Positions 272 to 5,655 of a DNA stretch of 64,000 bases are shown piece by piece; position 1 is the stretch's first letter, and every line of letters begins with the position of its first letter. Source of the DNA: Defluviitaleaceae bacterium. Lineage in GTDB: Bacteria; Bacillota; Clostridia; Lachnospirales; WQUN01. The stretch lies in the NCBI GenBank assembly GCA_009784025.1, contig WQVK01000005.1:1-64000 (forward strand). Direction: 5' to 3'. Under the pieces are notes generated by a model. The model had not been told where the DNA came from and searched no databases. It saw only the letters and a program-made list of their open reading frames with translations. The position numbers and the translations under genes were made by a program.

Positions 272-1175
272 ATGAAATACACAAGAAAAATAATGGTTGC
301 AATGCTTTTGGCGGTTGTGTTATTGTTGTCGCATGGGGTAGCGTTTTACGCTATGGAAGAGAGCGTTGTAGACAAATGCTATAATTGTATTTGATGTAGC
401 AACTCGTGAGGTTTCTGCGTATAATACAGGCAGGCAACGCCGAGCAGTAGCAGTACCTGAAAGCAATTGGCCAGAAATCCCACAAATCCTTGACATTCCA
501 AGAGAGCCTTCTGCTCAATTTGAAGCTTTTAATGCACCTAGCATAAATATGGTTCAAAATACACTTATGCGCCCGTACAATGGAATTGTTCAAGTAAGAA
601 CAATTTGGCCATGGGGTCCTGCGACTTACGGAACTGGATTTCTTTACGGAAATAGGCACGTTGCCACAGTAGGGCATGCCCTGTTTGATCTAGATAGAGG
701 CGGCTGGGCAAGTTGGGTTCAAATTTTCCCAGCCAGAAATGGTTCCATATCTCCACTTGGAGGATTTTTCCCTCTTAATCTTTCTGTACATGGAAATTGG
801 TTTCAAAGTAGAACTCAAGGTTACGATATAGGATTTATTATCCTTAATGATAATGTGCCTTCGGCAAGTATATTTAGCATGATGGCTGCAAATGATGCCG
901 CATTGCAAGGAATGAGCGTAACGGCAACAGGGTATTACAATAACGCACACCCACAGCACACGATGTGGAGAAGGCACGGTAGCATACGAACTCCACTCCA
1001 GAATGTTTTCGTAAGTACGTACTCCAGGGCAGGATCGCTTAGCGGCGCACCAGTTTACGATCAATTTGGAAGGGTTGTCGGTATTCATACGGGGCATACT
1101 CCAAGCGGTGAATCTGTTGCAGTTAGATTAACTTGGAATAAGATAGAAATGTTTAGTTCTACGCTTTTTTGGTAA
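272..1175 (+). pseudogene. Secreted trypsin-like/V8-like serine protease, frameshifted near the N-terminus (intact part 549..1175)
   Basis: Signal peptide MKYTRKIMVAMLLAVVLLLSHGVAFYAMEESVVDK from ATG 272 runs into TGA at 392. The other frame continues NAIIVFDVATREVSAYNTG... into the protease ORF. Catalytic-like motifs: VATVGHA (His), YDIGFIIL (Asp), GSLSGAPVY (Ser). Confidence 0.7.
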
Positions 1176-1202
1176 CACGATCTTAAGAAAGGATGATACC
1201 TG

Positions 1203-1886
1203 ATGCTAATTTTTACTTTTCTGATTTTGCTAGTGCTTCCTGGCTTTACTGCAGATATGTATTGCTGCAGGGGCTTGGATAAGCATAATTGGGAAGTGTG
1301 GGTGCCATCTAGGGTTGTATGTGAAGTTGAGTCCAGTGTTTCGGTACAGCCCGAAGTTGATAAATATCCTGTTGGCGTAGTGGCAATGCAGTTTTCGCTA
1401 GAAAACGATAATACAGAATCTTTTTATCATGGCCAATCGTTTACTATCATCAAAAGAGTAGACGGAGTATGGCGCGTTGTTCCAATGAGAGGTTATGGGG
1501 CTTTTTGGCATGACTTAGCTATGGTGCTGGGCGAGGGCCAGAGCCGCAGGGTTTTTGTTGACGTAGAGCTTATGTATGGCAAGCTTTGCGTGGGCGAGTA
1601 CGCCATTGTGATAGACGGTTGGCTATACGATAGGGCATATCATGCCATAGGCAGGTTTGCAATAGTTGCCGAGGGTTATGATGTTTCTGCGGAAGAAACG
1701 GCCGCAGAAGTTTGCAGGCCAATGTTATACGAAATTGTGAGCGGTGAAGCTCTACAGTGGCTAATGATTTGGACACAGCATGGCACAATAATCTATAACC
1801 TAGCCCCATACGAAGAATTTGACACAACAGGAATGGTTAATGCTGAAACTCTACGAGAGGCCAACTATTGGGTTTTCGCACCTTAA
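1203..1886 (+). CDS. Secreted protein with bacterial Ig-like (Big_14-like) fold, tandem copy 1
   Basis: Signal peptide. 'VAMQFSLENDN...KRVDGVWRVVPM...YGKLCVGEYAIV' pattern resembles Ig-like proteins of Firmicutes. Paralogous to 2181..2897 and 2968..3687. Confidence 0.65.
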   Translation: MLIFTFLILLVLPGFTADMYCCRGLDKHNWEVWVPSRVVCEVESSVSVQPEVDKYPVGVVAMQFSLENDNTESFYHGQSFTIIKRVDGVWRVVPMRGYGAFWHDLAMVLGEGQSRRVFVDVELMYGKLCVGEYAIVIDGWLYDRAYHAIGRFAIVAEGYDVSAEETAAEVCRPMLYEIVSGEALQWLMIWTQHGTIIYNLAPYEEFDTTGMVNAETLREANYWVFAP

Positions 1887-1892
1887 ACATAA

Positions 1893-1928
1893 AAAATACG
1901 CCCGGGATTAAGTTCCCGGGCGTATTTT
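1893..1928 (+). terminator. Rho-independent terminator
   Basis: AAAATACGCCCGGGATTAAGTTCCCGGGCGTATTTT just after the stop of copy 1. Confidence 0.85.
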
Positions 1929-2050
1929 CTTGCTAAAGTTTTTGTCAAGCTTTTGTAATATATAGTATGCCACTTCAAAGTGACAAGGTGTAAGAAATAT
2001 GTACAAATTGTGAGTTGACAGCACAGGATAGTGGGGTACACTTAAAACAC

Positions 2051-2152
2051 ATTGGCATCCATTTGGGATATGATTCTGGGCGGCAATCCCTGGCAGTTAG
2101 GCTGACCTGGAATCTTATCGAAATGCTAAACCCTACAATGTGGCTATGGTGA
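2051..2152 (+). pseudogene. C-terminal remnant of the serine protease
   Basis: Translates IGIHLGYDSGRQSLAVRLTWNLIEMLNPTMWLW*, matching VGIHTGHTPSGESVAVRLTWNKIEMFSSTLFW* of the protease at 549..1175. Confidence 0.85.
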
Positions 2153-2180
2153 ATGCAAAGCCAAGAAAGGATAATGCCGC

Positions 2181-2897
2181 ATGTTAATTTTCGCCCTTCT
2201 CATTCTAATGATGTTGCCATCTTACTATGCTGGCACATACTGCCGTGAAGACTTAAATAAGTATGACTGGGAGGTCTGGGTGCCGCATAGGTTATTAATT
2301 GCACAGACGCAAGATATAACCCTGCAACCAGAGTTTGATGTCTACCCTGTTGGAACAGTTGCCGTGCGGTTCGCGTTAAAAAATTTTGCAAGTGATACAT
2401 TTTATTATGCAAAGCCCACCACCCTTGTAAAAAAAGTTGACGATGTTTGGCTGGTTGTTCCAATTCGAGGTGATAATGCCAGCTGGTGGGATATTGGCAT
2501 CGAGCTTCCCACTGGAAGTAGTACAGAAATTATCCTTGATATTGGATTGATTTATGGTCAACTTCGCGAGGGTGAGTACGCCATAATAAAGGATGGAAGT
2601 GTGGATGGCAAACGCATCCATGTCCTAGGCATGTTTAGCATAGTCGCCGAAGGTTATGAAATTTCTGTAGAAGATACCGCAATAGCCACAAGGCCGATAA
2701 TATACAGTGTTTCGGAATCTAGAGGCTGGAATGAAAACAGTGAAGTAGTAACCCAGCGATGGCTTAGTATTCGGACTATAGATAGCGCTGTTACCATTTA
2801 TATAAGAGACGATTACGAAAAATTTGACACAACGGGAATGATTCCCGCTGAAAGCAGGTGGAGTAACAGTGTGTATCCATTTTGGGTAAGCCCATAA
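2181..2897 (+). CDS. Secreted Ig-like (Big_14-like) protein, tandem copy 2
   Basis: Strong similarity to copies 1 and 3 (HRLLIAQTQDITLQPEFDVYPVGTVAVRFALKN). Confidence 0.65.
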   Translation: MLIFALLILMMLPSYYAGTYCREDLNKYDWEVWVPHRLLIAQTQDITLQPEFDVYPVGTVAVRFALKNFASDTFYYAKPTTLVKKVDDVWLVVPIRGDNASWWDIGIELPTGSSTEIILDIGLIYGQLREGEYAIIKDGSVDGKRIHVLGMFSIVAEGYEISVEDTAIATRPIIYSVSESRGWNENSEVVTQRWLSIRTIDSAVTIYIRDDYEKFDTTGMIPAESRWSNSVYPFWVSP

Positions 2898-2903
2898 ACA
2901 TAA

Positions 2904-2939
2904 ATTGAGATGTTAAACTCCGTAAGGTGGCTATGGTAA
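2904..2939 (+). pseudogene. Extreme C-terminal scar of the serine protease
   Basis: Translates IEMLNSVRWLW*, matching IEMLNPTMWLW* (2152) and IEMFSSTLFW* (1175). Same position relative to the following Ig-like gene. Confidence 0.7.
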
Positions 2940-2967
2940 AAGCAAAGCCAAGAAAGGATAATGCCGT

Positions 2968-3687
2968 ATGTTAATTTTTGCCCTTTTCATGCTAATGATG
3001 ATGCCATCTTATTATACTGGCACATACTGTTGTGAAGAGTTAAATAAGCATGACTGGGAAGTCTGGGTGCCGCATAGGTTATCAATTGCACAGACGCAAG
3101 ATATAACCCTGCAACCAGAGTTTGATGTCTACCCCGTAGGAACAGTTGCTGTGCGGTTTGCGTTAAAGAATAATAGTGACCATGATATGTTGCGAGGCGA
3201 AGGGTTCAGGCTTGTAAAGAAAATTGACGACGTATGGCGTATTGTCCCCATGAGAGTTTACGACATCCTATGGTTTGACATAGCAATTTTGCATAGTGCC
3301 AGGAGTGTAAGAGAAATTGTTCTTGACATCGAGTTGATTTTTGGCCAGCTTTGCGAGGGCGAGTATGCTATGATTATAAATGACAGATGGATGAGCGCCC
3401 CTATTAAGGGCAGGTTTAGCATTGCTGCCACCGGCTACGAAATATCTGTAGAGGATACTTCCGCGGCGGTTGCCAGGCCTGTAGTTTACTCGCTTTCCGA
3501 TTCTACTGGCGCTGTAGATAGGGAGACGGTAACAAGAGAGACGGCAACAATGATACTAGTTCGTTCCAGGCATTCACCCGCTGTAATTTTCACTATAGAC
3601 ATGTACGAAGAAATCTACAAAATGGGAGCAGTAGATACCCGCACCCTGCCTAGAAATTGGTGGGAAGAACTTTGGATAGGTCATTGA
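2968..3687 (+). CDS. Secreted Ig-like (Big_14-like) protein, tandem copy 3
   Basis: Paralogous to copies 1 and 2. Confidence 0.65.
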   Translation: MLIFALFMLMMMPSYYTGTYCCEELNKHDWEVWVPHRLSIAQTQDITLQPEFDVYPVGTVAVRFALKNNSDHDMLRGEGFRLVKKIDDVWRIVPMRVYDILWFDIAILHSARSVREIVLDIELIFGQLCEGEYAMIINDRWMSAPIKGRFSIAATGYEISVEDTSAAVARPVVYSLSDSTGAVDRETVTRETATMILVRSRHSPAVIFTIDMYEEIYKMGAVDTRTLPRNWWEELWIGH

Positions 3688-3696
3688 GCTGCCAAC

Positions 3697-3736
3697 AAAA
3701 ATACGCCTGGGATTAAATTCCCAGGCGTATTTTTTT
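3697..3736 (+). terminator. Rho-independent terminator, near-copy of 1893..1928
   Basis: AAAAATACGCCTGGGATTAAATTCCCAGGCGTATTTTTTT. Confidence 0.85.
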
Positions 3737-3819
3737 GCTAAAGTTTTTTGTCAGGTTTTTTTCAAAAAGGCGGCGGAGGTGTGGTCGGCGGAGCCTCTGA
3801 CGGTTTTGCTCTAAATCAT

Positions 3820-4983
3820 CTATCTGCCAAAGTTCAAATGGATGCTCCCAGTAGTTGTCCTGGCGGTAAGCGGGGTGCCGCCTGCATGTTGGTTTGTCTG
3901 GCTGCGGCGGTCGCCGTTTATTCTTATCGTTCCTGTGGATACAGATGTAGAGATATTAAATGCGCTTTCTGGTTGGCCTGTGGTGAAGCGGATTGTGCCG
4001 GTGTTGGCCTGTAGGTTAATTGGGGCAGCGGGGTGCTGGGCAGAGCCGGAGTCGTTAAGGTGTATGCTGCCAGTTGTTGTCGTCGCGTTAATGTCGCCCC
4101 CTGTAAGGGTTGTGTCTATGCGTATTGTGCCTGTGTTTGCGCGGAAGCGGCCTTCGTGTAGGGTTGTGCCGCTGTAGTGTATGCTGCCGGTGGTGGTGCT
4201 GGTGTATATGGTTTCGGCGGCGGTTGTGGTCACGCGGATTGTGCCTGTGGTGGCATGGAAGCCGCCTGTGGTGATGGCGTTACCGTTGTAATGGATGCTG
4301 CCTGTGGTGGTACGCATGTACATGCTGGCTACATAAGAGTTGGTTGGGTTTATACGCATTGTGCCTGTGGTTGCGCTTATGCGGCCTCTGTTTATGCTAC
4401 CGTTGTTAAAATGGATGCTGCCAGTGGTGGCGCGTAGGACGAGATCGTCTGCGTCTATGCCGTCCATGCGTATTGTGCCTGTAGAAGTTGTGATGTTAAA
4501 CACATCTACATGGCTGGGTACGTACAGGCGTATCGAGCCTGGGTGGTTAAAACCGAAGGAAATTCTTGCCCTGCGTGGGTCTCTGGCGGTGAATGTCATC
4601 ACGCCGTTTACATCTGTTAGGGTTACGTCTAGGTTGTTGGGGTAGGCGACTCTTGGCCTGGGTTCATCTGTTGGGAATATTGTTATGCTGCTTGCTGCTG
4701 CGTTTATATAAATAGTGTGGGTATCCCCTGCGCCGTACCTAATATTTGAAGGTGCTGCGCGGCCTATGCGCGGGCCGCCTTGGAAATAAATGAAGCCGCC
4801 GCGGCCGCCTAAGCCCCAGCCGCCGCCGTACATTAGTACGCCTACTATTATAAGAATCACTGCCAGCTTAACCGGCGAGAACCTGCGCCTTGGCGGTTCT
4901 GGCGGGGATGGGGTTGGTGTTTCTTCTGGCGCATTCCATTCTGTTGGTGTGCCGTCGTTGTTTACTGGTTTATTATCTTCCAT
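3820..4983 (-). CDS. DUF4097-like membrane-anchored beta-helix/adhesin-like protein with alternating TTGSIH / TGTIR repeats
   Basis: N-terminal TM segment, then a periodic repeat (RTTTGSIHYNG...ATTGTIRV). SD GGAGGATT precedes ATG at 4983. Confidence 0.75.
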   Translation of the reverse strand: MEDNKPVNNDGTPTEWNAPEETPTPSPPEPPRRRFSPVKLAVILIIVGVLMYGGGWGLGGRGGFIYFQGGPRIGRAAPSNIRYGAGDTHTIYINAAASSITIFPTDEPRPRVAYPNNLDVTLTDVNGVMTFTARDPRRARISFGFNHPGSIRLYVPSHVDVFNITTSTGTIRMDGIDADDLVLRATTGSIHFNNGSINRGRISATTGTMRINPTNSYVASMYMRTTTGSIHYNGNAITTGGFHATTGTIRVTTTAAETIYTSTTTGSIHYSGTTLHEGRFRANTGTIRIDTTLTGGDINATTTTGSIHLNDSGSAQHPAAPINLQANTGTIRFTTGQPESAFNISTSVSTGTIRINGDRRSQTNQHAGGTPLTARTTTGSIHLNFGR

Positions 4984-5383
4984 GGCTAATCCTCCCGAAA
5001 ATTCCATTATAAATAAATTTTATGGCTGCCACGCACCATTTGCACAGCAGCACAGTTAGTAGAAACAAAAGTATGCCAACGCCCAGCGCAGCAACTGCGC
5101 CGCCTCCCATTACTAGCCCCCCGACAAAATCCTGGAATAAGAAAAACGGCGTTCCAATTATAACACCAATGCCGGAAATCACAAGTGCCGCGGCCGAAAT
5201 TGCAAAGGCCAGCAATACGCTGCCAATGGCAACCACAACCGCAAAAATGGCAGAAATAAGCGCAATGGCTATAGGCAGTATTATTGGCGCAGCCAGCACC
5301 GCAAGCACTATTATAATAATACGGCTGCTGCTTTTGGCAGGCGCTGCTGCCACAGGTGTTGCTAAAGTTTGTTCATTCATCAT
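4973..5383 (-). CDS. Polytopic membrane protein (DUF1700-like), cotranscribed with the DUF4097-like gene
   Basis: Hydrophobic ORF directly upstream of the DUF4097-like gene on the same strand, overlapping start. Confidence 0.6.
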   Translation of the reverse strand: MMNEQTLATPVAAAPAKSSSRIIIIVLAVLAAPIILPIAIALISAIFAVVVAIGSVLLAFAISAAALVISGIGVIIGTPFFLFQDFVGGLVMGGGAVAALGVGILLFLLTVLLCKWCVAAIKFIYNGIFGRISHGR

Positions 5384-5575: not shown

Positions 5576-5655
5576 ACCCCTGTGGCGGAATTGGCAGACG
5601 CGCCAGATTTAGGTTCTGGTGGGAGACCGTGCAGGTTCAAGTCCTGTCAGGGGTA
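5576..5655 (+). tRNA. tRNA-Leu (anticodon UAG), 3' CCA not encoded
   Basis: Acceptor ACCCCTG/CAGGGGT, anticodon stem CCAGA-TTTAGGT-TCTGG, long variable arm, GGTTCAAGTCC T-arm. Confidence 0.93.

Follow-up and report, generated by a model that had tools for sequence, protein, structure and literature searches.

The window analysed here, a stretch of 64,000 nt, begins at base 1 of contig C5, which belongs to a draft genome of 2.14 Mb. Close to its left end, a gene for a V8-type serine protease is followed on the same strand by three genes for Ig-like proteins of the Big_14 family, the second and third of which are each preceded by a remnant of the protease 3' end, and a fourth Ig-like copy lies on another contig, C34 (Table 1). 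The very start of the contig (bases 1–120) is of low complexity and rich in poly-G, probably a sequencing or assembly artefact. Beyond the cluster, and convergent with it, the minus strand of the window encodes a DUF4097 "toastrack" protein with many repeats of TGTIR/TTGSIH-like motifs (3820–5383), which is preceded by a small hydrophobic protein, and a tRNA-Leu gene (5576–5655) is found ~1.9 kb 3' of the Ig-like cluster.

Table 1. Features of the protease/Ig-like locus and the fourth Ig-like copy (positions in the window unless a contig is named)
Feature	Position	Strand	Remarks
V8-type serine protease (Trypsin_2)	272..1175	+	PF13365 E 5e-6, above cut-off; PDB relatives 1p3c, 1qy6, 9s74
Ig-like Big_14 gene, copy 1	1203..1886	+	PF20251 E 9e-10, 38.9 bits; 27 bp 3' of protease stop
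Terminator hairpin after copy 1, TGCTAAAGTTTTT tail	1892..1954	+	Hairpin −28 kcal/mol; the core recurs after copy 3 and the C34 copy only
Weak candidate promoter of copies 2 and 3, TTGACA-16-TACACT	2015..2042	+	Directly 5' of the remnant
33-codon protease-tail remnant before copy 2	2048..2152	+	50% identity to protease residues 225–256
268-nt shared block, copy A	2117..2384	+	Direct repeat D1: protease tail, ribosome-binding region, copy 2 codons 1–68
Ig-like Big_14 gene, copy 2	2181..2897	+	PF20251 E 1.7e-11, 44.5 bits; 5' block resembles copy 3, body resembles the C34 copy
11-codon scar before copy 3	2904..2939	+	First 36 nt of 268-nt repeat copy B
268-nt shared block, copy B	2904..3171	+	Direct repeat D1
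Ig-like Big_14 gene, copy 3	2968..3687	+	PF20251 E 1.7e-7, 31.6 bits
Terminator hairpin after copy 3, TGCTAAAGTTTTTT tail	3697..3759	+	Repeat comparison, genome-wide pattern search
Fourth Ig-like copy	C34:14876-15637 (L010:6877-7638)		PF20251 29.1 bits

The His, Asp and Ser of the protease align with the catalytic residues of 1p3c, so that a catalytic triad is recognised. A preliminary description of this DNA had taken the 208-aa open reading frame at 549 for the full-length protease, which turns out to be incomplete: the catalytic frame, open from ~369 to 1175, extends 5' of 402 and includes the pro-region, which resembles those of relatives when compared by eye, whereas the signal-peptide-like start (ATG 272) is found in another frame. 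No single frame encodes an intact secreted precursor; the two frames overlap at ~366–392, which therefore points to a frameshift or an assembly error there. An assembly or sequencing error at this start is possible, given the poly-G content of the contig's first 120 bases. A phage or plasmid origin was considered and rejected, as short-pattern scans, which reach close relatives only, gave no relatives on viral contigs and plasmid proteases were merely 23–30% identical. In a related genome (G031, contig C17, 39454–45046; L012 and L014), two adjoining open frames of ~1,180 aa each carry a domain like the present protease, possibly an independent tandem expansion.

All four Ig-like copies exceed the Pfam gathering cut-off for PF20251 (27 bits) and were assigned to Big_14 on this basis. 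The C34 copy consists of an Ig-like gene and its terminator, without a protease tail, and contains an in-frame TGA within an insertion absent from the other copies, reflecting either a pseudogene or a sequencing error. The N-terminus carries no basic residue in three of the copies. From its hydrophobicity, judged by eye, and from the usual context of the family, on which export and binding roles also lean, the copies would be single-domain binding proteins that are exported or surface-associated, sharing the N-terminal leader while diversifying in the Ig-like body. Two single-chain AlphaFold models had mean pLDDT values of 34.7 and 34.2, and no mention of PF20251 was found in the literature searched. 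The present genome encodes further Big_14 proteins: a lipoprotein-like one, whose gene (L051:2100-2711, contig C58) is flanked by a transporter-like gene and by parB/parA-like genes, a second that is larger and looks secreted, and a third.

The terminators after copies 1 and 3 had been described as near-identical, and they are indeed 86% identical over 63 nt, including the sequence past the hairpin. Across the whole genome, the hairpin core (ATACGCNNGGGATTAANTTCC) is found at three places, after copies 1 and 3 and after the C34 copy (a control pattern, 0 times); a generic repeated terminator is thus ruled out. Because the core always lies 3' of an Ig-like copy, the terminator belongs to the Ig-like gene, and because the C34 copy has no tail, the protease tail does not. 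Co-transcription of the protease with copy 1 is probable, given the 27-bp gap between them and the lack of an intervening terminator, and copies 2 and 3 are probably transcribed together, since copy 2 lacks its terminator. The candidate promoter located 5' of this latter pair belongs to a type of site whose count in the region is no higher than in shuffled sequences.

Protease tails do precede the Ig-like copies, with open reading frames and scars placed as the preliminary description had them, and the similarity between them persists in a proper alignment. The 33-codon remnant, half identical to the protease C-terminus, is retrieved in a whole-genome search (E 1.5e-4), and its local score of 90 compares with a maximum of 50 in shuffles (0/1000 as good). 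No resemblance to the remaining protease was found in the DNA immediately 5' of it (1887–2046). The 11-codon remnant taken by itself is unrecognisable as protease, the gap scoring no better than shuffles; it is secure because it forms the left end of the gap-free 268-nt direct repeat, and it is as the edge of this repeat that it stands. In all three copies at the locus, the protease or tail stop codon lies 27–28 bp 5' of the Ig-like start. The claimed conservation of this gap holds for AAGCCAAGAAAGGATAATGCCG, which has exactly two occurrences (0 expected), but does not extend in full to unit 1, where only the core AAGAAAGGAT is retained.

The two copies of the shared block are 90% identical over 268 nt without gaps, and the similarity between copies 2 and 3 changes abruptly at its right end: their divergence is 0.083 in codons 1–68 and 0.467 beyond. 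The breakpoint at codon 68 has a maximum chi-square of 93.1, as compared with at most 30.8 in permutations (0/500). Beyond it, copy 2 comes closest to the C34 copy, with a divergence of 0.28 in the body as against 0.45 in the first 68 codons, and the quartet trees differ accordingly, the 5' block giving (2,3 | 1,C34) and the body (2,C34 | 1,3), each in 2000/2000 bootstraps. With a significant breakpoint and conflicting trees on either side of it, which is how we defined a mosaic, the Ig-like genes are recombinational mosaics. The scar of unit 3 starts 6 nt past the stop codon of copy 2, at a place equivalent to that where copy 1 has its terminator; a single junction therefore accounts for the shortness of the scar as well as for the absence of a terminator after copy 2. 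The 11-codon scar is then best seen as the edge of a copied block, and apparently no separately decayed protease. As to the direction of copying, the length of the scars suggests copy 2 to copy 3, and the relations of the bodies suggest copy 3 to copy 2 followed by a later deletion.

This young 5' block also bears on the proposal that the Ig-like copies were kept, with which it agrees. Its Ig-like codons have a pN/pS of 0.24, from the small counts of 9 synonymous and 8 nonsynonymous differences (Fisher p = 0.002), and appear to be under purifying selection; whole-gene dN/dS is unreliable because synonymous sites are near saturation. In the scar, 9 of the 37 sites differ, a rate that, again on small counts, matches the synonymous one (p = 0.79) and departs from the nonsynonymous one (p = 0.0009). 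The scar thus seems to behave as a neutral passenger, with the Ig-like protein being what was retained.

The preliminary description explained the cluster by duplication of a whole protease/Ig-like unit followed by decay of the protease. Part of this stands, in that Ig-like genes have multiplied near a protease, most of which is missing before copies 2 and 3. Simple unit duplication does not: at the DNA level copies 2 and 3 share just the 268 nt, and the incompatible quartets mean that duplication of whole units alone cannot give these histories. The sharp breakpoint at codon 68, together with the lack of any further protease trace, led us to reject it as the main model. A modified version, in which whole units were duplicated, the proteases were deleted down to their tails and gene conversion later evened out the 5' ends of copies 2 and 3, is in keeping with the constant spacing between tail stop and Ig-like start and with the resemblance of terminators 1 and 3 past the hairpin. 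We nevertheless regard it as unlikely, since the upstream 85% of the protease is undetectable, two large deletions both ending within the last 33 codons are required, and the mosaic has to be produced by something other than duplication.

We then consider whether the protease and the Ig-like protein form a conserved pair, as had been proposed. Among the 38 family genomes searched, in which the genus itself is represented by the present genome alone, Big_14 occurs in 21 and Trypsin_2 in all 38, and comparing the match lists by eye gave no contig carrying both besides the present locus. Of the 392 order genomes searched, 11 carry a close relative of the protease and 13 one of the Ig-like proteins, the overlap being the present genome only. 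The neighbourhoods retrieved (~1.5 kb on each side) contain no cross-hits, and no protease adjoins the other Big_14 genes of the present genome within the stretch read. At such sampling, with no adjacency in either set of genomes, the pairing idea fails by the refutation criterion that the preliminary description itself had set.

The suggestion that went with it, of a selected role as inhibitor or immunity partner of the protease, is left unsupported, because relatives lack the pair and the fourth copy has no protease tail. As an explanation of the locus, Ig-like proteins acting as inhibitors, immunity proteins or cofactors of the serine protease, like the Ig-fold protein IPI of B. subtilis, could draw on the probable co-transcription of the protease and copy 1 and on the Ig-like fold of a reported serine-protease inhibitor (PMC3901451). 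It is nonetheless improbable: three of the four copies have no protease of their own, the other Big_14 genes in the genome stand apart from proteases, the copies have no sequence relation to IPI/BsuPI or to any solved inhibitor, and the authors of the IPI work themselves doubt that it is an inhibitor (PMC3901451). The link to IPI/BsuPI was dropped, as there was no match to PF12690 in Pfam up to E 1 and none to 3ISY among PDB sequences up to E 10. Copy 1 alone may have a protease link, given its probable co-transcription with the protease, and such a link, if real, would hint at what this uncharacterised Ig-like family does. More specifically, the Ig-like set might be diversifying secreted proteins that bind serine proteases, of inhibitor or immunity type, with an N-terminal leader cassette moved between copies that have variable bodies; we consider this a long shot, which would, if true, give Big_14 its first assigned function, as a protease partner.

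An assembly artefact, in which similar repeats mis-joined near a poor contig end would have created the mosaic along with the scars and the frameshift at the protease start, could be read from the poly-G-rich end at the window start, the broken protease frame close by and the draft state of the genome (67 contigs, 82% complete), but we give it hardly any credence, because 10% of the shared-block sites differ and synonymous changes are enriched in the coding part, so that the block is no duplicated stretch of reads, while the Ig-like open reading frames are intact (3/3) and the junctions lie 2–3 kb into the contig.

Overall, we favor, with a probability of roughly two in three, a reading in which a small Big_14 family grew and diversified via segmental copying between paralogues, the protease tails being neutral passengers and the Ig-like proteins not obligate partners of the protease. 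In this reading, an Ig-like gene that carried its own hairpin terminator multiplied; four copies now exist, the one on C34 being free of a protease tail and copy 1 sitting behind the V8-type protease. Segments with breakpoints in the protease 3' end would then have been copied along with the ribosome-binding region and the Ig-like leader. The 268-nt block, made of a 36-nt protease tail, the ribosome-binding region and 68 codons, may have been transferred through gene conversion or may stem from a tandem duplication after which one body was replaced, and the terminator of copy 2 may have been lost in this block-copying event or by a later deletion. The breakpoints would have fallen 5' of the ribosome-binding site that the Ig-like gene needs, and the protease tails would thereby have been carried along, whereas the bodies of copies 2 and 3, outside the block, have a different and older history. 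This is a fairly ordinary gene-family story, and it illustrates how segmental copying within a small, spreading gene family can carry along a piece of an adjacent gene, which is left as a scar; it also cautions against taking such scars for evidence of a functional pair.

The present protease shares the trypsin-like fold family, the aligned His-Asp-Ser, a signal-peptide-like start and a pro-region with the V8-type glutamyl endopeptidases 1p3c and 1qy6 and with the Jep protease (9s74); it differs from them in being distant in sequence and in having its start split over two frames. With IPI/BsuPI (PF12690, PDB 3ISY), which has been linked to serine proteases (PMC3901451), the Ig-like copies have in common the Ig-like fold family by name, but neither a detectable match nor conserved pairing with a protease, so that the likeness is one of analogy only. 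They carry the same domain as other Big_14 (PF20251) proteins, which are small lipoproteins or have it as the C-terminal domain of larger, secreted-looking proteins, whereas the N-terminus of the present copies is hydrophobic and lacks a consensus lipobox, and their sequence continues for ~80 residues past the domain. Finally, the cluster resembles paralogue arrays diversified by gene conversion in its 5' segment of high identity, its older bodies and its conflicting trees across a breakpoint, and differs from them in comprising merely four copies and in a shared tract that includes a piece of an unrelated upstream gene.
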